Source of the DNA: an uncultured Pelagibacteraceae bacterium
GTDB lineage: Bacteria; Pseudomonadota; Alphaproteobacteria; Pelagibacterales; Pelagibacteraceae
NCBI GenBank assembly: GCA_902609915.1
Contig: CACLTO010000004.1
Coordinates: 1-64,000 of the forward strand
Direction of reading: 5' to 3'
Length of the DNA stretch: 64,000 bases
Position numbers and translations under genes: made by a program
Notes under the pieces: model-generated
Databases searched by the model: none
Told to the model about the DNA's origin: nothing
What the model saw: only the letters and a program-made list of their open reading frames with translations
Part shown: piece after piece, positions 44,395-61,362 of the stretch
Numbering within the stretch: the stretch's first letter is position 1
How the letters are laid out: each line of letters starts with the position of its first letter

Positions 44395-45792
44395 TTAGTC
44401 AACCTTTTGAAATAAAACTACAAATATAGTTCTCATTAAAATATAAATATCCAGCATTAAATTCCAGTTTTTAATATAGTATAAATCATACTGAAAACGT
44501 TTATTCATTGATCCGTCTTCATCAGTAGGCCCCCTTAATCCATTAACTTGTGCCCATCCCGTTATACCTGGTAGACATTTATGTCTTTGCATAAAATTTT
44601 GAACTTCCTTTGAATAATATTTTGTATGATCAGTCATATGGGGTCTTGGCCCTACTATCGACATATCACCCTTTAAAACATTAAAAAATTGAGGTAGCTC
44701 ATCAATACTTAATCTTCTAATTATTTTGCCAACTTTTAAAAGTCTTCCGTCACCTGCTTTCACTTGTAATGTCTCATTTTTATTCTTCATATTTTTTATA
44801 GATCTTAATTTTAAGATATTAAAAGATTTACCATCCCAGCCAGTTCTTTTTTGTTTAAAAAAAATTGGAAAACCATCCTCTAATACAATTAAAATAGAAA
44901 AAATTATTATTATCGGTAATGAAATTATAATGAAAATTAAAGAAAATATCTTATCCATTAAAGTTTTTAATAAAAAACTTGTACCGTAAAAAGGGGAAAA
45001 AGAGACATTATAAAAGTCAAAGCCTGCCTCACTATCTAATCCCTCAACAAATTTAAATTTTGATTCTGGTTGAATTAAACGACAATCAATTGAATAATTT
45101 AGAAATTTTTCAATTATACTTTCTATATATGATTGTGTTTTAGTATTTGAAATTATCCAAACTTGTCCGATAGAATGATGGTTTAGAATTTGACCAAAAT
45201 TCTCGTTCAGACTAAAACTTGGTATTCCATAAAAATTTGTATCTTTTTTATCAAGTTGATCTATTGCTATTAAACACTTAATCACAGAGTTGCTAACTTT
45301 CTTTGGAAATTTTTTTATAATATCTTGACAAGATATTGCATCTCCGATTAATAAAACATTTCTCTGTATGGAATTTGATTTAACTAATTGAGCATAAACG
45401 TAATCAAAAAACACCTTAGAAAAAAGGAATAAGAAAGATGAAATACCTATATTTGTAAAAAGCCATATACGTGAATAATTATCTGTGGTTTTAAAAATTA
45501 CAGTAACCAAAATTACAAAAATAAAAGTTTGGATTAACAACAAAAATTCAATTCTAAGCCATTGAACTGTTCCTTTGATATATCTTTTTTCTTTAGTAGT
45601 AAAAATTGAGAGAATAAAGAAAATAACTACAATAAATATTGAGGCCTCTAAATAAGACTCTGATAAATTCCATGTATTATTTCTTATGTAAAAAGAAATA
45701 ATACTGCTAACAAATAATATTATACTTAAAAATGAATAATAAAATAATAAAAAAGATTTATCATCTCTTTGAAATATTTTTTCAAATATCAT
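44395..45792 (-). CDS. undecaprenyl-phosphate sugar phosphotransferase (WcaJ/WbaP-like)
   Basis: C-terminal FKQKRTGWDGKSFNILKLRSI...RLSIDELPQFFNVLKGDMSIVGPRPHM...KCLPGITGWAQVNGLRG. Confidence 0.93.
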   Translation of the reverse strand: MIFEKIFQRDDKSFLLFYYSFLSIILFVSSIISFYIRNNTWNLSESYLEASIFIVVIFFILSIFTTKEKRYIKGTVQWLRIEFLLLIQTFIFVILVTVIFKTTDNYSRIWLFTNIGISSFLFLFSKVFFDYVYAQLVKSNSIQRNVLLIGDAISCQDIIKKFPKKVSNSVIKCLIAIDQLDKKDTNFYGIPSFSLNENFGQILNHHSIGQVWIISNTKTQSYIESIIEKFLNYSIDCRLIQPESKFKFVEGLDSEAGFDFYNVSFSPFYGTSFLLKTLMDKIFSLIFIIISLPIIIIFSILIVLEDGFPIFFKQKRTGWDGKSFNILKLRSIKNMKNKNETLQVKAGDGRLLKVGKIIRRLSIDELPQFFNVLKGDMSIVGPRPHMTDHTKYYSKEVQNFMQRHKCLPGITGWAQVNGLRGPTDEDGSMNKRFQYDLYYIKNWNLMLDIYILMRTIFVVLFQKVD

Positions 45793-45830: not shown

Positions 45831-48017
45831 TTAACTATAGCTTTTATATTTATTGTAATAACCACCATATTGGTAGTAACCATAATAGCTTGCTTTAGAA
45901 GTATCTAAATCGTTAAAAATTAATCCATCTACTTTAACTTGAACGCCATTTAATTTTTTTAATACAGATTTAATCCCAACTAACTTTGTAACATTAGACC
46001 TTGCGATCAGGAAGTTATGATCAGTAGCCTGACTTATGAATAACGTATCACTCACCGGTTGTATCGGAGGTGTATCAATAATCACATAGTCATAATTTTT
46101 CTTCAGAGCATCAAAAAAACTTTTTAATTTTGATGTGGTTGTTAAATCTGTTAAGTCTGACCTTCTCGTTCCTGATGTCATTACCTCAATATCTGATCCT
46201 GGTAGTTTCATGATACAATCACTCATTTTAACCTTTCCCTGAATAATATCACTAAACCCTACTGTAGGTGCCTCATCTGCAAGGTTAGTTTTGCTTAACA
46301 CTGAAGGTCTTCTTATATCAGTTTCAATTAAAAGAACTTTGCCAATTTTAGAAAATGCTAAAGCTGTATTTAATGAAACTGTAGTTTTACCTTCTCCAGA
46401 GTAAGTCGAGCTTATTAATAATGATTTGTTTTTTTGATATTTTGCAACCAATAAAGTTCTTAAAGTTCTAATACTCTCTGAAAATTCAGAATTTACATCC
46501 TCTATAAATATCTGGGACAAATGGTATCCTTTATCTAATTTTTTTACTTTTGGAAGCGTTGCTAATACTGGAATATTGAAATTTTCAAGATGTGATGGTT
46601 CAATAACTGTGTTACTATTAAATTCTAAATATATCAAACCTCCAAAAAGAATTATAAACGATGTAAGATAAAACATTATAGTAATTTTTGTTACATTTGG
46701 AGATACGGGTAATAGCGGTAAAAGTGCATTTTGAATTATTCTAACATTTGATGATTGAAGCTCTTTAACTTCATTTGTTTCCTTCATTCTTTGAAGAAAA
46801 GTTTCATAAATTCTATTATTTGTCTCAACTTCACGCACATATTGTTGTAATGCAACATCCTTTTCCTCTAATGCTTGTAATTCAAATTTTGCTTGATCAA
46901 GTTCCGATTCACTCGACTCTATAAAACCCCTTAAATTTGATAATTCAAAAGCAGCTGCTGCAATATTTTCCTCTAAGATTTCTTTAAGCCGGTTATCTAA
47001 ATTTTGTTTGGTTTTGAGTGCCTTTTTAACTTTTGGATGTTCATCGGTGTAAATAATTTGAAGTGCCTCAATATTATTATTAGTAGCATTAATATTTGTT
47101 CTAATATTATCTACCTCTTTTTTGTTTCTAAGATCTGCTATAGCTAACAGTTCATCAACATTTCCATCAGCTAGTTTAATTGAGGTAAGATCATTCTGTT
47201 TTTTTTGTAACTCTCTATTTGCTTCAATAATTCTTTGAGAGACAGATTTAATTTGATCAATCTTAAGATCTTTAATGTCTCCTATATCTATTAAATTATT
47301 CTCTTTCTTATAATTCAGCAATTTTTGTTCAGCAATTTCCATTTGCTTTAAAAGCTTAGATAATCTTACGTTTATTTGCTGATTAGCATAGTTTGTAACT
47401 TTAACCTTTGTATCAACATCATATTTTAAATATGCATCTATAACTTGTTCTAATAAAAATTTTGCAAATTCAGCACTTCCTGAATTCATTGTTATATTTA
47501 CAACATCACTGTTTCTTATTTGAGATACGGCTAAATTATCTGTAATATAATTTTTCAAAATAATTTTTAGATCATCTTGATTAGTCGTATCTTTTTTTTT
47601 ATTGAAATTTAAGAATCTTAAATTTTTAGCAAAATAATTTTTCGGTAATCTTTTGTACAGATCTGTAATATTATCTAAATTTTTTGGATCTAATAAAATT
47701 GAAGATATAACTTCGTCACTTTCTATTATTTGAATTTGATTATTAATATAATTATTATTACTAAACCCTGTTCTCCCAGTTTCTCCATCATATACTTCTT
47801 CTATATTAACAATGTTTTTTGTTGACTCCTCAATTACTAGAGTTGCTTGACTTTGGAAAATTGGGTTAATATTTAAAGATATAAATAATCCAAGTAGTCC
47901 AAACAAAAGAGGGACAATTAAAAGTATTCTTTTAAATTTTAAAAGTATGATCCAATAATGAGCTAAATTTAATTGCTCATTAATATCACCTATTCTTTCT
48001 AATAAACTTTTTTCCAT
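45831..48017 (-). CDS. Wzc-like polysaccharide co-polymerase/tyrosine autokinase
   Basis: Wzz N-terminal domain, Walker motif SSTYSGEGKTTVSLNTALAFS, YDYVIIDTPPI, Tyr-rich tail YYGYYQYGGYYNKYKSYS. Confidence 0.93.
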   Translation of the reverse strand: MEKSLLERIGDINEQLNLAHYWIILLKFKRILLIVPLLFGLLGLFISLNINPIFQSQATLVIEESTKNIVNIEEVYDGETGRTGFSNNNYINNQIQIIESDEVISSILLDPKNLDNITDLYKRLPKNYFAKNLRFLNFNKKKDTTNQDDLKIILKNYITDNLAVSQIRNSDVVNITMNSGSAEFAKFLLEQVIDAYLKYDVDTKVKVTNYANQQINVRLSKLLKQMEIAEQKLLNYKKENNLIDIGDIKDLKIDQIKSVSQRIIEANRELQKKQNDLTSIKLADGNVDELLAIADLRNKKEVDNIRTNINATNNNIEALQIIYTDEHPKVKKALKTKQNLDNRLKEILEENIAAAAFELSNLRGFIESSESELDQAKFELQALEEKDVALQQYVREVETNNRIYETFLQRMKETNEVKELQSSNVRIIQNALLPLLPVSPNVTKITIMFYLTSFIILFGGLIYLEFNSNTVIEPSHLENFNIPVLATLPKVKKLDKGYHLSQIFIEDVNSEFSESIRTLRTLLVAKYQKNKSLLISSTYSGEGKTTVSLNTALAFSKIGKVLLIETDIRRPSVLSKTNLADEAPTVGFSDIIQGKVKMSDCIMKLPGSDIEVMTSGTRRSDLTDLTTTSKLKSFFDALKKNYDYVIIDTPPIQPVSDTLFISQATDHNFLIARSNVTKLVGIKSVLKKLNGVQVKVDGLIFNDLDTSKASYYGYYQYGGYYNKYKSYS

Positions 48018-48120: not shown

Positions 48121-48654
48121 CTAATATTTAGACAAAACAACTCTTCCCGTCTCATCACTGAATCTAGGAATATTTCTTAAATAATAAAGCTTAAGAGTTT
48201 TATTTTTCTTTTTATTATTTTTCGAAAGAATAAAAAGATTTAAGAAATTTTTTTCAAACTCAATTTTATCAACATCATTATTAATCTGATGAAGTACTTT
48301 TGTTTCCCAATATTTATAATCTAACGCAGATTTCCTTTCTGTTTTTTTTATAAGATTGAAAATTTTCTTACTATATAGACTGGTGCCCCCAATATCCTTT
48401 TTATTAATCATTATGGGTTTGATAAAAAAAATCGAGTAATTGTATGGTAAAAAATTGATTGTTTTTGAAAAATAATCATCAATTTTAGTGCTGTAAGATA
48501 TTATTAATATAGAGAAAATATTATATAAAGAGATTATAATTAAGCTAATTATTAAAATTTTGTTTATGTATTTATTTAAGAAAAACACATTTAATTTTAT
48601 CAAAATAAAATTAATTTTACCATTAATTTTATCAACTGTATTTTTTTGTAACAT
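48121..48654 (-). CDS. hypothetical membrane-anchored protein (start uncertain)
   Basis: One N-terminal TM segment and a soluble tail; annotated start overlaps the divergent 48566 CDS; alternative GTG at 48588. Confidence 0.5.
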   Translation of the reverse strand: MLQKNTVDKINGKINFILIKLNVFFLNKYINKILIISLIIISLYNIFSILIISYSTKIDDYFSKTINFLPYNYSIFFIKPIMINKKDIGGTSLYSKKIFNLIKKTERKSALDYKYWETKVLHQINNDVDKIEFEKNFLNLFILSKNNKKKNKTLKLYYLRNIPRFSDETGRVVLSKY

Positions 48655-51600
48655 TTCTCATTCTGAACAGATCTTTACAGGATTTGTAGAGTCTCTAGAA
48701 GGTCAGGCAAAAAAAAACATAAATGGGAATCTGAAAAGACTAAGTGAATATGATCAAATATTTACTAATGAAAGTATTGTGGTTAGTCCAAATTCATCCA
48801 TCAATATATCATTTATTGATAATTCTATTTTAACACTTGTTGGAGATTCTGAATTTTTGGTAAAAGAATTTGATAATACTTCCCAAGAAAAGTTGTTTCG
48901 ATTAGAGATTTTAAAAGGTAAATTTACTTTTGAGTCTGGATCTATTGCAAAATCAAAAGATGATGCAATGAAAATTATTTTGTCTGAAATTGAAGTTGTT
49001 CTTAACGGAACGCTTGTTACGGGTGAAAATTCAGAGGCTAATAAATCAATAGCCTTAGTAGAAGACTCTATGGGAAAAATTGGGAGTTTGAAAGTTACAG
49101 TTGGGGATCAAACTACAACGATATCTGAACCTTCAGTTGGTATAAATATTTCAGGATCACAAATTCAGCAAACTACTCTTAGTACGGAAGAAGTAGATCA
49201 AATTAAAGAAATAAAAAAAGAAGCATTAATTAAATCATCAACGCAAAGCGAAGAGGATATTGATAGAGCTTTATCAAAACAATTAGCTAATGGAACAATC
49301 CCTGATTCAAATGGAGATGGTATTGCTGATGCAAACGACATTGAGGCTTATAAAAATGAAATTTATGATTTTAGAGGAGAAAGATTTGATTATTTTGTAG
49401 AATATTCTACAGGAGCTGACATGGGATTGATGTCAGATATAATTATGAATTCTGATCCAAGTCAGTCAATGTATCTTATGCAAAGTATGATTGATTTCGA
49501 CCAAGCTAATACTACCAATCTAATGGATGAGGTTGCAAAGGCTGGATTTGATGTATTTTCACATATGGCTCAAGCAGATGGTTTAGACCCAACTATGCCT
49601 TATATGGATGAAACTTTTGATTTCAATGAAATTAGAACTTCAATAGTTGATGGGATGATCTTAGATCAATCTGAGCAATCAATTGATGCAATAGCAAGAG
49701 TAATGGCTGTAAGTGATCCTTCGATGAGTACATATTTAGTAGAAGAGATCTCAAATATTACACCGCAAGGTGATGAAAATTTTTCAATAGACATATTAGC
49801 TAGTTTCACAGAAATGGCGCCAGAAAAGTTAGCTGAATTTTATGAGGAAGATCCCGAAACAATGAATAAATTAACAACCAATGCATTTCAAAATGCTGAT
49901 GAAGGAGATATTGAAATGATGGCAACGATAATGCAAGAAACTTCTCCAAAAGATACTGCTTTATTGATGACAAATTTAGTTGAAAATAATCCTGAAATGA
50001 TTGCTGGAGTTTACGGCACTCTAGCAGAGCAAGATTTTGATCTATTTGATCATATAGAATCTGCAAAAGTTAAATCTGGTGAAACTGTAACTGTAAGTAT
50101 CGCAAATGACTCTATGTATGGAACAGAAATCAGTGATGGAGGTCAAATAATGAATATGGTTGTAGATGACAATATCATTGCTTATCAAGATGAGTATTTC
50201 CAAAACTTTAAAGGAGAAGTTTTTGCTGAAATAATAGCTCATTCAGAGGGGACCTCTTCTGAAGTTGTAGCCGAACTTATGATGGATACAACTAATGGTG
50301 ATACTGCAATGTTTATGATGGAAGCTGTAATGAATGAAAATCCAGATGTGCTAAGTGATGTTATGAATAATTTTGCTGATCAAAATTTTGATATCTTCGA
50401 ACATATAGAAGAGACTACAATTGACGAAGAAAATATTGATATTGATGATAATCAATCTGAAAATATTCTAGTTACAGATGAGAACTTAACTACTACATCT
50501 TCACCAACTGTTGTTACAGACAACATATCTTCAGGCTCAGAAAATAAAATTCGATTAACAAAAGCTGAACGACAAGCTTTAAAAGAAGAAAGAAAAGCAA
50601 AAAGAAAAGCTGAAAAAATTGCTAAACAAGAAAAAAGGAAAGCAGAAAGACAAGCAGCAATTGCTGAGAGAAAAGCAGTAAATAAAGCTGCAAGAATAGC
50701 GACCAGAGAAGGTAATGAAGAAGAAATTGAATTTGATAACATTGAAGATGATTTAAAAGAATTTAAAACAGAAGTATTTAAAGAAATGATTGAAAATTCT
50801 AATCAAAATACAATGTCTACAATGGCTAAATTAGTGACTACTACAGATAACTCTACTGTCTCACTTATTTTTGAAACAGTTATTTCCGAACAGAACAATC
50901 CTGAAGAAAATATCGATAATATTTCAAATCAAAACTTAGCTTTAGATTTTATGGACAATCTGAGTAATGTTGACTCTGAAATAGTGGAAACAATTTACGA
51001 GACTCAAACTGAACTAGTAAATGATATTGTTGATACAGCACTATCAGATGTATCATCTGAAGATTCTGAAGCTATAGCTAATATAATATCTTCTTCAGGA
51101 AATAATGAAGTGATAGAGATGGTGTTTAATAATATTGTCTCTTCAAATGATCAATCATTAACAACTGAAGTCTTTACAACTCTTGCTGAAAGTGAAGATG
51201 GTGCAGATGCAATAATTACAATGGCCTCAACTAATCAAAGTCTTTATGAAAATATTGCACAAGATATTGATTCAACATATATGACTGCAGCATCTTTATA
51301 TACTGATACAACTTCACAATATAATACATCTACAACAGCAGCAGCTGCTGCAACATCTGCTTCAGATACTACAGCTTATGCTGCTGGTGATATATCTTGG
51401 ACGACCTACCCTATGTCACCTGGAACTATTTCAACCAGTTATTACGTAAGTATAACTGGAACGGCTGAGTCTATGAATGGCGTAGTTTATTCTGTGTCGG
51501 ACTTACCAGATGGATTAACTTTAGATTATTCTACTGGAATGATTTTTGGTACACCAACAAGTCCTGGCGTTTTTAACACAACAATTACCGCGACAGATAT

Positions 51601-54013
51601 AATGGACTCGGGAAATTTTGCTACTGCTAGTTTAACTTTTGATATAGTTGAAGATACGAGTGGAGGTTATGATAGTGGCGACGGAGGTAATTTTTCATTC
51701 ATGTCAACTCCTTATCCTCCAGCAACTTTAACTGTTAATAATACAATTACACCAATATATCTTTACACATCAGGTGGAGTTGGGAGCATTACTTTTACGG
51801 CCACTGGACTACCTACTGGTATATTTATAATGGGAGATGAGATAATGGGAACTCCAGACACTCAGACATTTTCAGGAAGCGCTGTAAATATTATAGCTAC
51901 AGATGAAGACGGAAACACTACAAGCGTAAATATTAATTTCCCTATGGTAGATTCTAATTCTGGAGAAGGTGGAGGAGCAAGTGGACCTATATGGGCAACT
52001 TATCTTTATCCACCTGCATCGCTAACAGAAGGTATTGAAATGCCTGATATGTATTTAGATGCTACAGGAACAGGATTTGTAAGTTATACAGCATCAAATT
52101 TACCGATGGGTTTATATGTTGATGGGGAGTATATTAGAGGAACTCCTAGTATGCAAACTGCTGCAGCTTCTAGTGTAATGATTACTGCTACAGATGATAT
52201 TGGTTCGCAAACCAAATATGTTACATTCCCAAGTGTAGATCCTAGCAGTGGAGGTGGTAGTGTTACTTGGACAACTACACAAGCTGATTTTCCATCTACT
52301 ATGACTAAAGGAACAGAGATATCGTCTATAACTTTAAGTGCAACAGGAATCACGGAACCAATTACTTATACTGATGATGGTAATTTACCAAATGGGATTT
52401 CTTTAACAGCAGGTGTAGTATCCGGCACTCCTCAGAATGTTAGAGCTACAGAGACTTCTGTAACTTTTACTGCTGAGGATATGGATGGTAATAAAGAGAC
52501 CTTGACGGTTTTCTTTCCGATAATAAATGCTGCAAGTGGTATTAGTAATCCTAACTGGATTACCACACCAACAACTACGGGAACTTATACTACAAGTTCA
52601 AATATAAGCATAAGTGCTGAAGCAGTCTCAGTCCCAGCAGCAAATGGAGTAATTTATTCTGCTTCAAGTTTACCTCCAGGGATTACTTTAGATACAGCAA
52701 CAGGGTTTATTTCTGGAACTCCTACAACAGCTGGAACTTATACCTCAGAAATAAAAGTAGAGGATGCAACAGACAGTACTTTTCAAATAAGTGAAACTTT
52801 GACATTTAATATTTCTGGAAGTACATCAGTCACATGGATTACACTTGATACAGATTTTCCTTCAACTTTAACCGTAGATGATCCGATTTCCTCAATAGCG
52901 CTAGATGCTGATGGAGTGGGTGAAATTTCATATGATTATACTGGAACATTACCACCTGGACTAACTTTAGCAGGAGGCTTGTTCTCTGGAACACCAACTA
53001 CATCAAGTGCAACCTCGACTACTATTACTTTTATCGCAACAGATGAGGATGGAAATAATGAGAATTTAGTAGTTACTTTGCCACAAGTGAACGCGAGTGG
53101 TGGAGGCCTGACTTGGAATACAACTGCAGCAGAGTTTTCTTCTTTAACTTTAACAGAGGGTACACCTATGTCTTCAATAACTTTATCAGCAACAGGTGTT
53201 GGTACTATAAGTTATGCTGATGACGCAATGTTACCTGCAGGTATATCTTTAACTGCAGGTATAGTTTCTGGAACTCCTACTTCATCAACCGAGACTGAAA
53301 CATCGGTAACTTTTACGGCACAAGATGATAATGGTGATACTGAAACTTTAACTGTCTCTTTTCCAATAATTAGTGCAAGTGGTGGTATTAGTAATCCAAC
53401 ATGGATGTCAGAACCAATATTTGATTCTACTTATAATATAAATGACAATATAAATATAACAGCAGATGCAGAGTCAGTACCAGCTGCAAACGGAGTTATC
53501 TACTCAGCTACTGGTTTACCCTCTGAACTTACAATTGATACTAACTCTGGCTTAATATCTGGGATGCTTAGTACAGTTAATTCTTATTCAATAACAATTT
53601 TTGCTTATGATCAGACCGATAATACTTATCAAATTAGCTCATCTAGTAGCTTTATAGTTTCGTCTGAAGGAACTGAAACAGTTGAATTTGATACGCCCGC
53701 AGGAACACTCGCTTCTGTAGACGCAGGAGAAACAATCAATGAAACTGTAACAGCAACAGCATCACAAGGTTCTGAAATTACTTACTCTTTCACAGCTACT
53801 AATAACATGAATGCAATGGGTCTTGCTGGTACAAGTATAGTTGTTACTGGAAATACGATTTCTGGTATTGCTCCAAGATTGTATGTGGCAGCTACATATT
53901 CTTTTGCGTTTACTGCTACAATCCCAAATACTCAGACAAATAACAGAACATTTACAATCGATATTTCTCAAGATTCAACTTGCGTATCACCAACTAATAA
54001 TATCTGCACTTAA
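48566..54013 (+). CDS. giant exported FecR-domain protein with helical repeats and Ig-like (He_PIG-type) repeats
   Basis: Signal-like N-terminus, FecR-type region (SIVVSPNSSINISFIDNSILTLVGDSEFLV...GKFTFESGSIA), DSNGDGIADAND Ca-binding-like motif, Met-rich repeats, KAERQALKEERKAKRKAEK helix, ~9 W-x-T...LPxGLxL..G..xGTP domains. Track start 48560 is TTG. Confidence 0.85.
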   Translation: MYLFKKNTFNFIKIKLILPLILSTVFFCNISHSEQIFTGFVESLEGQAKKNINGNLKRLSEYDQIFTNESIVVSPNSSINISFIDNSILTLVGDSEFLVKEFDNTSQEKLFRLEILKGKFTFESGSIAKSKDDAMKIILSEIEVVLNGTLVTGENSEANKSIALVEDSMGKIGSLKVTVGDQTTTISEPSVGINISGSQIQQTTLSTEEVDQIKEIKKEALIKSSTQSEEDIDRALSKQLANGTIPDSNGDGIADANDIEAYKNEIYDFRGERFDYFVEYSTGADMGLMSDIIMNSDPSQSMYLMQSMIDFDQANTTNLMDEVAKAGFDVFSHMAQADGLDPTMPYMDETFDFNEIRTSIVDGMILDQSEQSIDAIARVMAVSDPSMSTYLVEEISNITPQGDENFSIDILASFTEMAPEKLAEFYEEDPETMNKLTTNAFQNADEGDIEMMATIMQETSPKDTALLMTNLVENNPEMIAGVYGTLAEQDFDLFDHIESAKVKSGETVTVSIANDSMYGTEISDGGQIMNMVVDDNIIAYQDEYFQNFKGEVFAEIIAHSEGTSSEVVAELMMDTTNGDTAMFMMEAVMNENPDVLSDVMNNFADQNFDIFEHIEETTIDEENIDIDDNQSENILVTDENLTTTSSPTVVTDNISSGSENKIRLTKAERQALKEERKAKRKAEKIAKQEKRKAERQAAIAERKAVNKAARIATREGNEEEIEFDNIEDDLKEFKTEVFKEMIENSNQNTMSTMAKLVTTTDNSTVSLIFETVISEQNNPEENIDNISNQNLALDFMDNLSNVDSEIVETIYETQTELVNDIVDTALSDVSSEDSEAIANIISSSGNNEVIEMVFNNIVSSNDQSLTTEVFTTLAESEDGADAIITMASTNQSLYENIAQDIDSTYMTAASLYTDTTSQYNTSTTAAAAATSASDTTAYAAGDISWTTYPMSPGTISTSYYVSITGTAESMNGVVYSVSDLPDGLTLDYSTGMIFGTPTSPGVFNTTITATDIMDSGNFATASLTFDIVEDTSGGYDSGDGGNFSFMSTPYPPATLTVNNTITPIYLYTSGGVGSITFTATGLPTGIFIMGDEIMGTPDTQTFSGSAVNIIATDEDGNTTSVNINFPMVDSNSGEGGGASGPIWATYLYPPASLTEGIEMPDMYLDATGTGFVSYTASNLPMGLYVDGEYIRGTPSMQTAAASSVMITATDDIGSQTKYVTFPSVDPSSGGGSVTWTTTQADFPSTMTKGTEISSITLSATGITEPITYTDDGNLPNGISLTAGVVSGTPQNVRATETSVTFTAEDMDGNKETLTVFFPIINAASGISNPNWITTPTTTGTYTTSSNISISAEAVSVPAANGVIYSASSLPPGITLDTATGFISGTPTTAGTYTSEIKVEDATDSTFQISETLTFNISGSTSVTWITLDTDFPSTLTVDDPISSIALDADGVGEISYDYTGTLPPGLTLAGGLFSGTPTTSSATSTTITFIATDEDGNNENLVVTLPQVNASGGGLTWNTTAAEFSSLTLTEGTPMSSITLSATGVGTISYADDAMLPAGISLTAGIVSGTPTSSTETETSVTFTAQDDNGDTETLTVSFPIISASGGISNPTWMSEPIFDSTYNINDNINITADAESVPAANGVIYSATGLPSELTIDTNSGLISGMLSTVNSYSITIFAYDQTDNTYQISSSSSFIVSSEGTETVEFDTPAGTLASVDAGETINETVTATASQGSEITYSFTATNNMNAMGLAGTSIVVTGNTISGIAPRLYVAATYSFAFTATIPNTQTNNRTFTIDISQDSTCVSPTNNICT
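49380..51260 (+). repeat. array of at least six degenerate helical repeats inside the FecR protein
   Basis: Copies such as GLMSDIIMNSDPSQSMYLMQSMID...GFDVFSHMAQA, EMMATIMQETSPKDTALLMTNLVENNPEM...QDFDLFDHIESA, EVVAELMMDTTNGDTAMFMMEAVMNENPDV...QNFDIFEHIEET. Confidence 0.65.
51986..53670 (+). repeat. two ~846-bp super-repeats, each of three Ig-like domains
   Basis: attagtaatcc recurs at 52541 and 53387 (846 bp apart, in frame); preceding domain starts at 51992 and 52835 are 843 bp apart. Confidence 0.65.
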
Positions 54014-55371
54014 TGATATTAAAAAAAAATGTTCTTCAAAATCTATTTTTAATTATCTTAATTGTAACCTTGAGTTTTAATGCAAGTATTAATCCTTTAT
54101 TAATTCAAATCGCTTCTATTAATTTTATTATTCTTTTTTTTTTATGTTTAAAGAATGATGAAATTAAAGAGAGGATTAAAGAAAATTATTTGAATAATAA
54201 ATTTTTTTTTATCCTTTTTTTTGTATATTTGAGTTACCTTGTATTAAAAATAATTCCTTTCCCATTAAGTTTAATCGAAATCTTGGCACCTAATAACTAT
54301 AATCTATATACTTCTATAAAAATTGACAAATCATTATGGTCACTAAGTATAGATCCTGCAAATTCATTTTTTAGACTACTAAACTGTATTAATTTTTTCA
54401 TAATCTTTTTAATATTCCCTGTCTTGTTTAATAGAACTCGATATTTAATGAAATTTTTATTTTTTTTGTGTATCTTGGGTTTTTGCCATGCTGCATTTGC
54501 TACATACTGGATGTTGATTGGAAATCCATCAATTTTTTTTATTGAAAAAATCCATTATCTAAATGCTTCCACGGGTCTCTTTGTAAATAGATCTGTTTTT
54601 GGAACATTTTTATTTTTATGTGCTTTTTCAGGGCTATATTACATAGTAATTTATTTTCAAAAAAATCAAATAACAAACTTTACTTTCGCAGAACAGTTGA
54701 AAAGTAAAGTTTTTTTTATAAGAATCTTTATTATTTTTTTAAGTATTGGAATTCTGACAACTTGGTCTAGAGCTGCAAATTTTAGCTATATTCTTATTTT
54801 ATTCTCTTTTTTACTTTACTCAAAGATATCTTTTAAGAAATATATTAACCCACTATCAACTGTTATAATTTTCATATTAATTTTTGATGTTTGTGTAATG
54901 GCCGTCCTATTTGGCAATGCAAAACTAATTGAAAGATATGCTGAAACTTCACTTTTGAGGGAAACAATAAGATTTGATTTACAGGCTTTTGGTTTAGAAC
55001 AATTTAAAAACTTTTGGTTATTTGGTTATGGCAGTGGTGCTTTTGGAAGTATATTTAAAATCTTTTATCCTATTCCTGATAATTCTTTTAACTATTTAGC
55101 AGAACATGCGCACAATGATGGTGTAGAACTTTTAGGTGAAATAGGATTATTAGGTGTTTCGATATTATTGTTGATATTAATTTTTTATTTTAAAATAATT
55201 TTAAAAGAAATTAATGGAAAAAAACAACTCGGAAGATTCACTTTATTAACTTTATTAATTTTAATTTTGTTTATCCAAAGTTTTGTAGATTTTTCATTAC
55301 ATACACCTGGTATACCAATTTTAATAGTAAGCATTTTGTCTATAGGTTTAATTAACTATGAAAACCAATAA
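54013..55371 (+). CDS. O-antigen polymerase/ligase-like membrane protein (Wzy/WaaL family)
   Basis: Polytopic protein with periplasmic-loop motif FGYGSGAFGSIFKIFYP...EHAHNDGVELLGEIGLLG; ATG overlaps upstream TAA (TAATG). Confidence 0.85.
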   Translation: MILKKNVLQNLFLIILIVTLSFNASINPLLIQIASINFIILFFLCLKNDEIKERIKENYLNNKFFFILFFVYLSYLVLKIIPFPLSLIEILAPNNYNLYTSIKIDKSLWSLSIDPANSFFRLLNCINFFIIFLIFPVLFNRTRYLMKFLFFLCILGFCHAAFATYWMLIGNPSIFFIEKIHYLNASTGLFVNRSVFGTFLFLCAFSGLYYIVIYFQKNQITNFTFAEQLKSKVFFIRIFIIFLSIGILTTWSRAANFSYILILFSFLLYSKISFKKYINPLSTVIIFILIFDVCVMAVLFGNAKLIERYAETSLLRETIRFDLQAFGLEQFKNFWLFGYGSGAFGSIFKIFYPIPDNSFNYLAEHAHNDGVELLGEIGLLGVSILLLILIFYFKIILKEINGKKQLGRFTLLTLLILILFIQSFVDFSLHTPGIPILIVSILSIGLINYENQ

Positions 55372-55385
55372 TTTTTGAAAATATA

Positions 55386-56513
55386 TTATCTATTATCGCT
55401 TACGATATCCTCGTTATCACTTATAATATACCAGTCATCTTGTTCTGCTATATAGGGTTTATATGTTTTAAATAAAGTTTCTGATGGAGTTAATAAACTT
55501 ATTACATTATTCCATTTTACTAATTTGGTTGAAGGAATGAAAACTATATCATTTGGAAGAATATAAAAATTGTTTGCTGCAATAAATGCAGCAGGATTAT
55601 TTAAGTCAATCGTAAATATATCTATGTATAGGAATTTGTTTAAATTTTCTCTCATTACATAAATATTTTTTGTTTTAGCGGTAGCTTTATTGATCCCTTT
55701 AGTTGCTAATAATTCAGTCAATGTTAAATCTTTATATACAGAAATCGGTCCCGAAGTAGTAAACTCACCAAAGGCAAAGGCCTGGTCAGTATCAGACTCT
55801 GATACATGTAAAACATCATCTTTCCTTAAATACACATCTAAATCAGTATTATTCTTATTCAGTAATTCAAAAAGATCTATTTCAAAAACTTCATCGCCTC
55901 TTCTTAGTAACGCAGTCTTCATATAACTTTTTTGATCTTTAATATAGCCAGCCCGTATAAGAGCATCTAAAACTTTTAAAGGTTGCTCAGAAAGTAAAAT
56001 CGATAAAGGACGATTAATTGCACCTGTTATATAAACATATGAACTATTATATTGCTCAATCTTTACAATTGTTTCAGGTTCTTGGTAAAAAGTTTTTAAT
56101 ACTTCATTTATAAATGATTGAGCTTCCTCTTTAGTTTTACCATCTATAACAATTTGCCCAGCATAAGGAATTGTTACATCTCCTTTTGGACTGATAGTAT
56201 ATGAGCCATTAATGTCATCGATATCTGTGATAGACACATTTATAACATCACCTGGGCCTATAGTGTAATAATACTCATTCTCATCCATTAGCTTGATGAT
56301 TTTTTTATCTTTATTTTTTTTCATATCCTCAAATTTAGGAAGAGAAGCTGTATTGATTTTATTTAGATTATGAAATTTTAGAGTAACGCCCCTTTGTTCT
56401 AGGCCTATTTTTTTTGGATTTTTACTTTTTGGTTCACTCTTGAAACCCGTTGAGTTTGTACAACCAACTAAAAGAAGGAAAACTAACAGAATCTTTAAGT
56501 ACATATGATTCAT
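55386..56513 (-). CDS. polysaccharide export lipoprotein (Wza-like)
   Basis: Lipobox LLVGC; YTIGPGDVINVSITDIDDINGSYTISPKGDVTIPYAGQIVIDGKT, SLBB-like repeats. Confidence 0.92.
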   Translation of the reverse strand: MNHMYLKILLVFLLLVGCTNSTGFKSEPKSKNPKKIGLEQRGVTLKFHNLNKINTASLPKFEDMKKNKDKKIIKLMDENEYYYTIGPGDVINVSITDIDDINGSYTISPKGDVTIPYAGQIVIDGKTKEEAQSFINEVLKTFYQEPETIVKIEQYNSSYVYITGAINRPLSILLSEQPLKVLDALIRAGYIKDQKSYMKTALLRRGDEVFEIDLFELLNKNNTDLDVYLRKDDVLHVSESDTDQAFAFGEFTTSGPISVYKDLTLTELLATKGINKATAKTKNIYVMRENLNKFLYIDIFTIDLNNPAAFIAANNFYILPNDIVFIPSTKLVKWNNVISLLTPSETLFKTYKPYIAEQDDWYIISDNEDIVSDNR

Positions 56514-56527
56514 TTATATATTAATTT

Positions 56528-57727
56528 TTAAAAAAATGAAAAAAATTTAATAATAAATTTCAAACTAAGAATTAAAAATAATAATTCCACAAAAAATAGA
56601 GAAAGAATCAAACCATAAAGCCCTAAAAAATTTCCAAGAAAGATAAATATAAATAACGAAAAAATAGCTGTAATTAGGGATATATTTCTTTGGAATAACA
56701 TTTGGTCATTATAATAAAAATAAACATTCATCATTGTTGTTAATCCTCTTAAAAAGGCAATAGGAAATAAAAAGTAAACATATTTAATTATTATATCTAA
56801 AGGGTATTGGTCACTTAAAAGAATATTAAATAAAAAATTCCCAAAGTAATAATGAATTAATATTGCAATTAAAATAGCTATAACAAATAAACCTAATGAT
56901 TTTATAATCATTTGATTGTCTTTTTTTTTGGAGTAATCAGGCATTATGATTTTTTGTAATTGAAATAAAGGAATAAGTAAAACTTCTAATACTAATAACA
57001 AAATTGCATAGGTGGCTACTTCACTTTTTAAAATCAAAAATGGTGAAATTGTTAAACCCATATAAATTGTAAAATGATTGGATAAACTGATTATAAGATA
57101 ATTTTTTGCTTTTAAAGCAAATTCAAAGATTCCGTTCCTCAATCTTTTAACATTATTATCTTCATATCTAAGGTAAATCAAAAACTGCAGAATAATTGAA
57201 AATATTACAGAATAAATAAAAAAGTTTAAAACTTTATAAATAGTCAACTCATTTTTATTGATCAAGATTAATAAAAGGAAAAGTAAAGTTTTTGATAAAA
57301 GAATAAGATTTAATTTTAAATTTTTATTTATAGAAACTAAGAATCCTTCGTAAGAAAAAATTAAAATAAAACACAAAAATGATGATAAAAGAATTGATTT
57401 TGTATCAAAATTATTTAAAAAAAAATATAAGATTATCAAAGGGAAAATAAACAAAAAAATTAAACTTCTTAATCTTATAAAATTATAAAGAATTGATTTA
57501 AATTTATATAAATCTTTATTATAAAGATTGTTGCTATAATGAAAAAAACCAAATTCCATTGCTATTAATAAATATCCAATAGCATTCTTGATTAATTGAA
57601 AATTTGCAAAATCTTCAACTTTTAAATTATTAATTAATACTATCGCTAAAATTAAACTAGAAATTCTAAACAATAATTGCGCTGAAGAGTTTACTGTGAG
57701 AATCTTAAATAAATTAAGTAACTTCAT
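56528..57727 (-). CDS. polysaccharide flippase-like membrane protein (Wzx/MATE-like)
   Basis: ~399 aa, about 12 TM segments, N-terminal NSSAQLLFRISSLILAIVLINNL typical of Wzx proteins. Confidence 0.75.
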   Translation of the reverse strand: MKLLNLFKILTVNSSAQLLFRISSLILAIVLINNLKVEDFANFQLIKNAIGYLLIAMEFGFFHYSNNLYNKDLYKFKSILYNFIRLRSLIFLFIFPLIILYFFLNNFDTKSILLSSFLCFILIFSYEGFLVSINKNLKLNLILLSKTLLFLLLILINKNELTIYKVLNFFIYSVIFSIILQFLIYLRYEDNNVKRLRNGIFEFALKAKNYLIISLSNHFTIYMGLTISPFLILKSEVATYAILLLVLEVLLIPLFQLQKIIMPDYSKKKDNQMIIKSLGLFVIAILIAILIHYYFGNFLFNILLSDQYPLDIIIKYVYFLFPIAFLRGLTTMMNVYFYYNDQMLFQRNISLITAIFSLFIFIFLGNFLGLYGLILSLFFVELLFLILSLKFIIKFFSFF

Positions 57728-59496: not shown

Positions 59497-60128
59497 TTTT
59501 TTAAGTATTTATTTATTGCTTTATTTGTGTCTTTTATAATTAAAATTTTATCTTTTTTACTGAATGTGTTAAATACTCTTAAATCATCATAACAATATAT
59601 GTCTAAGGGAAACTTTTTTATAAATGAGTATATACGCAAATAATACAAAAAAAAATTAGTACTCAAATAATTTTTAAAATTGTTATCAAAAAAAATCCTT
59701 AAATCCAAGTCTGAATTTATTTTAATAATTTTTTTTTCTGAGGATGTTGAGCCAATAACTATTGCTTCTTTTATATCCTTAAAATTTAAAATTTTATTAA
59801 CTACTTTTTTATACGTGTAGTTCATTTTATTTAGATCGTTTGTATAATTTAAAGAATATCTATTTATCAGCCAAAATTGGCATAAAAAAACCCAAAAGAA
59901 AGTATGAATAATTATTATGCACAGAAGTAGATTCAACGATGTAAGAGAAAAAAAAATTGAGATAAGTAAAATTTCAGTAATAATCCTAAAAGATAGTTCT
60001 TTAAGTTGCATTCCTCTGATACCTTGAAAAAACCAATTAACTAATAGAATAAATATAAATGAATTAAATAAAGTATCTAATAAAGTATTTCTTTTTATAA
60101 ATTTAAATTTTCTTTTGTAAATTTTCAT
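59493..60128 (-). CDS. membrane protein with C-terminal pol-beta-type nucleotidyltransferase-like domain
   Basis: N-terminal TM segments, then AIVIGSTSSEKKIIKINSDLDLRIFFD (GS-x-DxD pattern). Track start 60200 is TTG; ATG at 60128. Confidence 0.6.
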   Translation of the reverse strand: MKIYKRKFKFIKRNTLLDTLFNSFIFILLVNWFFQGIRGMQLKELSFRIITEILLISIFFSLTSLNLLLCIIIIHTFFWVFLCQFWLINRYSLNYTNDLNKMNYTYKKVVNKILNFKDIKEAIVIGSTSSEKKIIKINSDLDLRIFFDNNFKNYLSTNFFLYYLRIYSFIKKFPLDIYCYDDLRVFNTFSKKDKILIIKDTNKAINKYLKK

Positions 60129-61362
60129 TTTCTTTTTTAGTAACAGAACTATTATAACACATTGAAAAAGCAGCCACGAAAAAAAAAGGTATAGTTGCAA
60201 AATTTGTCTCTAATAACATGGACCAGAAACCTGAGAATAACAAAGAGATGCCATATAAAAATACTGTTCCTGCCAGTATAAAACCATACTGATTTTTTGT
60301 TTTTTTATAGGTCTTGATATAATTCAAATTTTTAAAAATTATGCTTAAATAAATCATCAAAAAACTTATTAAACCAAAAATTCCTGTTTCACCCATTAAG
60401 TGTGGATAAAATAAATCTATAGAGTTTAAATTATTAAAACTAAAGCCATATTTTTGATAAACAAGATTATCTTTGTTTGATGCCCAACCACCAAAATTAC
60501 CAACACCAACTCCAAGAAAAAAATTATCTTTAATTATCTTTCCTGACTGAAGATAAAAATCATACCTAGAAGATTGATCTAATTGATTATAATCTAAAAT
60601 TGTGTTTTGTTTTGAAATAAACCTATTAGTTAAACCACTATAATTTACTATAAGAATTAAACCTATTATTAAAAAAAATAAAAATTTTTTAATTGAAATA
60701 ATTTTGGTGTAAACTAATGCTATAAGATTAATTAAGATCAGTGTAATTACGCCTAAAGATTGACTTAATAAAATTCCTATACCAAAAAGTAATGATAAAT
60801 ATTTTTTTTGATAATATAAAAATGAATAAATAATTGGAAATATTAAAAAGAATGCAAAATCGACAGGAGATCCTACAAGTGAATATGATCTAAATGGATT
60901 AATTGAGGACGGATTACCAAAAACTCCGTAAACTACGTAAAAATGTCTATCAAGAATATATTCTGATATACCTATAAATAATAATATAAAGGAAAAATAT
61001 ATATAGTAATTTAAGTATTTTTTATAAGCTTTTTCACTATAAATTACAGCAGTCACTAAGTAAATTAAACATGGTAAAAGGTAATTTTTAAGCTGTATTG
61101 AATAATCTTTAAGACTGAAGTTTTCAAAGTTTAATATAAGCGAAAATAAGCTTATTAATAAAAATATTAAGGGCCACCTTAAAAATTCTATACTTAGTCG
61201 ATTTTTGCTTAAGAGTACAAAAAAAAATAAGATTACTATAGCTATATCATCAAAATATTTTACATTTATACCAGTTACATTAGTTATAAAACTTAGTATA
61301 GAACCAGTAATTAAAGTAAGAAGTAATAAATTTCTTGAAACACTAAATATATTTGAATTCAT
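60103..61362 (-). CDS. O-antigen ligase/polymerase-like membrane protein
   Basis: Polytopic; FFLGVGVGNFGGWA...YPHLMGETGIFGLISFL motif of Wzy_C-type proteins. Confidence 0.82.
   Translation of the reverse strand: MNSNIFSVSRNLLLLTLITGSILSFITNVTGINVKYFDDIAIVILFFFVLLSKNRLSIEFLRWPLIFLLISLFSLILNFENFSLKDYSIQLKNYLLPCLIYLVTAVIYSEKAYKKYLNYYIYFSFILLFIGISEYILDRHFYVVYGVFGNPSSINPFRSYSLVGSPVDFAFFLIFPIIYSFLYYQKKYLSLLFGIGILLSQSLGVITLILINLIALVYTKIISIKKFLFFLIIGLILIVNYSGLTNRFISKQNTILDYNQLDQSSRYDFYLQSGKIIKDNFFLGVGVGNFGGWASNKDNLVYQKYGFSFNNLNSIDLFYPHLMGETGIFGLISFLMIYLSIIFKNLNYIKTYKKTKNQYGFILAGTVFLYGISLLFSGFWSMLLETNFATIPFFFVAAFSMCYNSSVTKKENENLQKKI

Follow-up and report, generated by a model that had tools for sequence, protein, structure and literature searches.

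SAR11 bacteria are among the most abundant marine bacterial groups, and the locus described here raises the question of what an exported protein of 1815 residues does among the capsule genes of one of them. The DNA analyzed, referred to as the window, comprises the first 64,000 nucleotides of contig CACLTO010000004.1 (contig C4) from an uncultured Pelagibacteraceae bacterium whose assembly is 829 kb long and ~70% complete. Its nearest named relatives are the Pelagibacteraceae single-cell genomes AG-470-P06 and AG-325-L02. The protein, designated the giant, combines a FecR domain, alpha-solenoids and Ig-like domains, and a first-pass annotation had proposed that it is a surface adhesin, an S-layer-like scaffold or a capsule-retention protein. 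The analysis showed that the giant is a constant member of a Wzy-dependent capsule module carried by a small minority of Pelagibacter genomes. Among the three proposals, capsule retention fits best, while adhesion and S-layer formation found no support. The interpretation put forward here, with a probability of about 0.4, is that the giant may be a capsule acceptor or tether, joined to the polysaccharide by the adjacent Wzy_C enzyme and anchored in the periplasm by its FecR domain.

The giant gene and its capsule module

The gene is real and under purifying selection. As first annotated, the reading frame runs on the forward strand from the ATG at 48566 (a TTG start codon lies at 48560) to a stop codon ending at 54013, giving 1815 residues counted from the ATG, and three orthologues with 95, 83 and 58% identity were all full length with the frame intact. 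The ratio of nonsynonymous to synonymous substitution rates (dN/dS) in the structured segments was ~0.05-0.5. Selection was loosest in the charged linker, where the ratio ranged from 0.27 to 1.13 and was near 1 in one comparison. Promoter and terminator scans gave no signal above chance.

Wza, Wzc, an initiating sugar transferase, Wzy_C and glycosyltransferases occur together in the window (Table 1), which identifies a Wzy-dependent capsule or exopolysaccharide locus. With regard to the Wzx flippase, a 399-residue membrane-like protein with no Pfam match is encoded at 56528-57727, and the sugar cluster of another genome, G398, holds a MatE-like protein. The order Wzc, orf177, giant, Wzy_C, Wza was the same in all four close orthologues, with orf177 transcribed away from the giant and Wzy_C following the giant in the same direction. 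The giant had been placed between the Wzc-like and Wzy-like genes; on the left its immediate neighbor is orf177, a divergent gene for a protein of ~150 residues, with Wzc lying beyond it. Homologues of orf177 adjoin every giant that has an assembled 5' flank, and the gene is under purifying selection (dN/dS 0.08-0.26); the family matched nothing in Pfam or NCBIfam. The 5' ends of the two divergent genes overlap in the window (48121-48654 versus 48566), and in distant genomes both start codons lie inside a 12-18 bp overlap (for example ATGAATGTTAGTCAT, read both ways).

The giant, its Wzy_C partner and Wzc were searched for independently in 399 genomes of the genus. Twelve genomes had Wzc, and the giant and the Wzy_C partner were each found in 11; the giant occurred together with Wzc in 10 genomes and with the Wzy_C partner in ten (Fisher p ~3e-17 and ~5e-18, respectively, values that are too optimistic because the sequences share ancestry). 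No counterexample was seen, since every exception was a contig end: 1) the contig of G208 ends within Wzy_C, 2) that of G197 ends right after Wzc, 3) the giant of G444 occupies the whole of a 4.1-kb contig and 4) the module of G407 is divided between two contig ends. Module carriers made up ~3% of the SAR11 genomes searched, and the giant was undetected in the ~97% without that capsule.

Eight further giants in these genomes were distant homologues (724-1606 residues, ~25% identity across the first 450 residues), and a ninth was found in the complete genome G463. The distant giants have no Ig domains, but retain the N-terminal succession of FecR domain, loop and solenoid. Those on sufficiently long contigs were flanked by orf177 and by Wzy_C/Wza/Wzc, at several chromosomal sites. 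Full-length matches were restricted to this genus in an order-wide sample of 247 genomes, and in a class-wide sample of 357 genomes the FecR part alone was matched outside the genus. The capsule link proposed in the first-pass annotation would have been refuted by homologues consistently lying apart from polysaccharide export genes; at every locus that could be judged, Wzc/Wza/Wzy_C genes stood beside the giant.

Capsule islands gather cargo genes, and the giant could in principle be a passenger of this kind with no capsule role. This is barely credible, as its position and orientation were constant across lineages whose giants are ~25% identical and whose islands occupy different chromosomal sites, and dN/dS was well under 1. 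The giant appears instead to be a regular, and possibly an obligate, part of the capsule system.

Table 1. Positions of the giant, its predicted parts and the neighboring capsule genes in the window
Feature	Position	Strand	Basis or remark
Giant, 1815-residue exported FecR/alpha-solenoid/Ig protein	48566..54013	+	ORF, Pfam, orthologues, dN/dS
Sec-type signal peptide, residues 1-33	48566..48664	+	By inspection
FecR-fold beta domain, residues 37-204	48674..49177	+	Pfam, profile match, AlphaFold2 model
DxNxDGxxDxxD calcium-type loop, residues 247-258	49304..49339	+	11-homologue alignment
HEAT-like alpha-solenoid 1, residues 256-618	49331..50419	+	AlphaFold2 model and Foldseek
Highly charged helix, residues 666-712	50561..50701	+	AlphaFold2 model, low confidence
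Alpha-solenoid 2, residues 727-898	50744..51259	+	AlphaFold2 model
Ig-like (He_PIG) array, residues 940-1800	51383..53965	+	Pfam, nine stretches; alignment
Conserved C-terminal tail STCVSPTNNICT	53975..54010	+	Cys1806 and Cys1814, sole Cys of the mature protein
Wzy_C (O-antigen ligase family) membrane protein	54013..55371	+	Pfam, E 1.1e-11
orf177, divergent ~150-residue protein with one N-terminal hydrophobic segment	48121..48654	-	Real start probably below ~48610
Wzc-like co-polymerase/tyrosine kinase	45831..48017	-	Pfam, NCBIfam
WcaJ-like undecaprenyl-phosphate sugar transferase	44395..45792	-	Pfam/NCBIfam searches
Wza-like outer-membrane polysaccharide export protein	55386..56513	-	Pfam Poly_export, SLBB; NCBIfam
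Second Wzy_C protein, variable sugar cluster, candidate repeat-unit polymerase	60103..61362	-	Pfam, E 1.1e-10

The Wzy_C partner and the C-terminal tail

The strongest point, overlooked in the first-pass annotation, is the fixed pairing of the giant with the Wzy_C gene downstream. In the window the stop codon of the giant overlaps the Wzy_C start (TAATG), and at all 10 of the 10 junctions examined the two codons either overlap or lie no more than 3 nucleotides apart. The Wzy_C partner was 77-98% identical among close orthologues, and the sugar-cluster genes beyond Wza were sharply diverged (locus L032) or unrelated (L033, L034). A second Wzy-like protein was present in or near the sugar cluster, above the Pfam cut-off in G000, G061 and G398 and more weakly in G407 and G208. 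Because the partner is conserved across differing sugar clusters and a second Wzy-like protein is present, the partner may be a ligase that does not discriminate between repeat units, with the second protein as the polymerase, and the pattern is as expected for such a division of labor.

The residues of the partner are consistent with this assignment. Arg237, Arg308, Arg320 and His367 were invariant in a 12-row alignment, the protein carries an H[NS]-x9-GxxG pattern, and its best match in the PDB, a weak one (E 0.012), was the WaaL ligase 7tpg, with the HAHND motif aligned. The functional residues of E. coli WaaL (Arg215, Arg288 and His338) are conserved in PglL (Schulz et al., PMC3643930). 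The partner thus resembles the WaaL O-antigen ligase in its Arg/Arg/His residues, and differs in its gene neighbors, which are those for capsule export and for a giant protein instead of lipid A-core genes.

A further parallel is offered by the O-oligosaccharyltransferases of pilins. TfpO and TfpM lack a PglL_A domain and modify the C-terminal residue of the adjacent pilin, whereas the target of PglS is a serine between two cysteines (PMC12645811). As in TfpO/PilO, TfpM and PglS, the Wzy_C enzyme is encoded beside one specific exported protein, and as in TfpO and TfpM, PglL_A is absent and WaaL-type Arg/Arg/His residues are found in the Wzy_C domain. In contrast to all three, the candidate acceptor is a FecR/solenoid/Ig giant instead of a pilin (no pilin domain was among its Pfam matches), and the candidate activity, proposed from sequence, would operate in a polymerizing capsule locus.

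The tail of the giant fits this picture loosely, by analogy. The mature protein has exactly two cysteines, both within the last ten residues in the arrangement C-VSPTNNI-C-T, and the pair is kept in all four close orthologues, so that, as with the PglS glycotag, a conserved C-terminal tail contains a serine that in the window is flanked by two cysteines. The distant giants have no tail cysteines, and eight of the nine terminate in [VI]S[PA]N (NVSPN, NISPN or NISAN); apart from this likeness of the tails, the C-terminal parts of the close and distant giants are unrelated. The last residue is Thr in three orthologues, Ile in that of locus L034 and Asn in the distant giants, and the conserved serine is internal. 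Neither a PEP motif, a C-terminal transmembrane helix nor a basic cluster was found in the giant, whose tail reads ...DSTCVSPTNNICT.

The two terminal cysteines allow a different anchoring to be imagined. In two-partner secretion adhesins a C-terminal hook stays in the outer-membrane pore, and by analogy the final cysteine pair of the giant, the only cysteines of the mature protein and conserved in four orthologues, might form such a hook, with the N-terminal part outside. This is very unlikely, because the Pfam matches of the giant include no two-partner secretion domain and the distant giants are devoid of cysteines.

The pairing also bears on the possibility that the giant is a surface fiber or adhesin, coexpressed with the capsule and not covalently linked to it, with the Wzy_C partner acting as the repeat-unit polymerase. 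Fibrillar adhesins are typically large and carry Ig arrays, recombination changes the number of tandem Ig copies and the Wzy_C family of Pfam includes polymerases. However, polymerases are normally serotype-variable and lie within the sugar cluster, whereas this Wzy_C is conserved across clusters and a second Wzy_C is present. Moreover, Ig domains are entirely missing from the distant giants, and adhesion through these domains is therefore not the conserved function. The fiber explanation was considered somewhat less likely than a tether.

Domain architecture and the FecR fold

The giant is strongly acidic, with 261 Asp and Glu versus 70 Lys and Arg. Its signal-like N-terminus, noted in the first pass, has by inspection the layout of a Sec-type signal peptide, with KK at its positively charged start, then a hydrophobic core and a cleavage region of small residues (ISHS followed by EQ), and this layout is repeated in all homologues. 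The FecR region and the approximately nine Ig-like domains were also recovered, the former by a Pfam match at residues 71-165 (E 5.6e-6) and the latter as nine stretches of He_PIG (E 2.4e-46). In an AlphaFold2 model of residues 1-930, built with 12 homologues (mean pLDDT 72), the beta domain at residues 37-204 had a pLDDT of mostly 80-93, and Foldseek found it similar to the FecR-domain structures 4m0n and 4m0h with an rmsd of 2.6-2.9 Å over ~150 residues. The DSNGDGIADAND motif, first likened to a calcium-binding loop, corresponds to a DxNxDGxxDxxD loop in which Asp247, Asn249, Asp251, Gly252, Asp255 and Asp258 were invariant among 11 homologues.

The Met-rich repeat array of the first-pass annotation exists as a region, and the model recasts it as alpha-solenoid; the charged helix was likewise predicted, at low confidence. 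A more specific relative of the solenoids was not identified, as the Foldseek matches of the N-terminal 930 residues were generic HEAT-like proteins (importins, SF3b) with low TM-scores and the FecR match alone was specific. A Pfam match to the XPC-binding domain was under the cut-off and was treated as helical noise. The alignment showed that the number of Ig copies varies among orthologues while the C-terminal cap persists. An invariant YAAG, within DTTxYAAGDISW, marks the junction of solenoid and Ig array in the four close orthologues (residues 938-941, window 51377-51388); by eye it recalls a LapG cleavage site but differs from the [TAP]AAG consensus. Pfam, searched at E up to 10, revealed no S-layer anchor domain of a known type, SLH included. 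A described family with the full architecture, the other finding that would have refuted the first-pass proposal, was not found in Pfam, NCBIfam or the PDB.

In a profile comparison the N-terminus of the giant matched PDB 5ix9 (E 4.4e-9), a chain labeled 'antifreeze protein' that corresponds to region I of the Marinomonas ice adhesin. The fold of 5ix9 is common to the retention domains of LapA and FrhA (PMC12077191), and retention modules remain in the periplasm and hold the RTX adhesin in its outer-membrane channel (PMC13090378). The earlier statement that the giant has no recognizable anchor was thus too strong, in view of this fold and of the cysteine pair kept in four close orthologues. 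The NCBIfam LapA retention model matched under its cut-off (E 0.048). In common with LapA and MpIBP-type giant RTX adhesins, the giant has an N-terminal beta domain of the 5ix9 fold family, a long acidic body of repeats that includes Ig-like modules, and a calcium-type motif. It differs from them in its apparent Sec-type signal, its alpha-solenoid core, its Wza/Wzc/Wzy_C partners and, by Pfam, the lack of an RTX C-terminus. Neither the window nor the loci of the close orthologues L032, L033 and L035 gave a match to type I secretion ABC or TolC genes, and one ABC exporter-like gene lies past Wza in L034.

For comparison, FecR-bearing open reading frames, mostly large, were examined at 17 other places in Alphaproteobacteria. 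ABC-exporter-like or TolC-like genes lay near 12 of the 17, a count that sets a ceiling for type I secretion because the ABC query was generic, and CHASE2 was nearby in seven; Wza, Wzc, Wzy_C or WcaJ was found near none of them at E 1e-5. The module loci show the opposite pattern. A CHASE2-SpoIIE gene is the neighbor of the capsule module in three genomes (G398, G407 and G463) and is found a short distance away in a fourth (G235), which suggests that the FecR domain of the giant was derived from the SAR11 FecR/CHASE2-SpoIIE operon. This widespread operon encodes a small or 906-residue FecR protein together with CHASE2-SpoIIE and outer-membrane or TPR proteins (L036 6104-12218; L038 8058-14986). 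The FecR domains are homologous and CHASE2-SpoIIE is near the module in some genomes, but the FecR proteins of the operon, 190-520 or 906 residues long, gave no solenoid match and the operon has no capsule genes. Literature searches that paired FecR with capsule or Wza or with adhesins of type I secretion, or surface proteins with the hypervariable regions of SAR11, found no report.

Other large SAR11 proteins were encountered. SAR11 genomes of the sister family encode Ala/Met-rich giants of 2374-2958 residues beside TolC and ABC exporter genes; kinship with the helical region of the giant was rejected, as the match (E ~1e-4) looks compositional. The helical giants of L045 (8795-17671), L046, L047 and L051, 2458-2958 residues long, adjoin a TolC-like gene, in L045 followed by an ABC exporter, and are probably type I secreted. 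By inspection, a 1638-residue exported protein of another Pelagibacter genome (L053 4819-9735) resembles the PilY1 type.

The architecture could also suit a periplasmic scaffold or molecular ruler, in which the alpha-solenoid would span Wzc and Wza and control export or chain length without ever being surface-exposed. The giant has a Sec signal, and no outer-membrane protein export route is encoded nearby; its linkage to Wzc and Wza is strict, and the conserved part is the FecR domain plus solenoid. On the other hand, a large Ig array of variable copy number would be unusual in a periplasmic ruler, and by Pfam Wzc already has two domains known from chain-length proteins, Wzz and GNVR; a ruler is improbable.

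A candidate capsule tether

From these observations we infer the following scheme. Sec would deliver the giant to the periplasm, where the N-terminal FecR/retention-fold domain would stay as the cell-side anchor and the alpha-solenoids, accompanied by Ig domains or not, would serve as an extended acidic spacer. The Wzy_C enzyme, co-translated with the giant, would act as its ligase or O-oligosaccharyltransferase and transfer the completed polysaccharide to it from undecaprenyl; the most plausible acceptor is the serine of the conserved C-terminal VSP(T)N tail. A protein tether would then keep the capsule attached to the cell. In a variant that has little chance of being right, Wza and Wzc would export the polysaccharide with the giant trailing behind it unfolded, Wzy_C having joined the two at the C-terminus, and the FecR domain, too bulky for the pore, would halt on the periplasmic side. 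If true, this would amount to LapA-like retention with capsule export replacing type I secretion.

Several considerations weigh against the tether: 1) the bond between giant and polysaccharide is deduced from sequence, and the C-terminal part would still have to cross the outer membrane, 2) small SAR11 FecR proteins of another operon match 5ix9 too, and the match therefore indicates a FecR-type fold and not proven retention, 3) the Wzy_C partner could still be the polymerase; neither PglL_A (PF15864) nor Wzy_C_2 was detected in it, and PF04932 was the sole match at E up to 10, 4) an AlphaFold model of the partner had a pLDDT of 58 and gave no significant match in a fold search and 5) the giant of one damaged locus (L092, G297:C44) lacks the conserved tail. 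In that locus the giant and Wzy_C are both shortened, as if a deletion spanned their junction, and an assembly error or a broken locus is possible.

Two known systems touch on the proposed role. The capsule lectin Wzi holds a Wzy-dependent capsule on the cell, the role proposed for the giant, but the two proteins are unrelated; a Wzi profile (PF14052 barrel) matched in none of the 10 module genomes, in a search that had no positive control. In exosortase/PEP-CTERM systems, too, the genes of surface proteins accompany exopolysaccharide genes and that of a Wzy_C-family ligase, but the giant has no PEP-CTERM tail.

The scheme may also bear on marine phosphonates, which were argued to sit on glycans of unidentified high-molecular-weight surface proteins of Prochlorococcus and SAR11, possibly attached through O-oligosaccharyltransferases (Acker et al., PMC8931226). 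A true pepM above the cut-off was found in only one of the 13 genomes checked. This gene, in AG-470-P06 (G061, the genome of the closest orthologue), is on another contig away from the capsule locus (C27:2582-3430) and has one in-frame TAA. The giant is nevertheless a concrete candidate for a phosphonate-glycan acceptor in the encapsulated minority of SAR11.

How Wzy-dependent capsules are retained in Gram-negative bacteria is stated to be unresolved in reviews (PMC12220298). The giant is a good candidate for a capsule tether, and as it is always encoded with a capsule exporter and a ligase-like enzyme, a covalent protein tether becomes directly testable.

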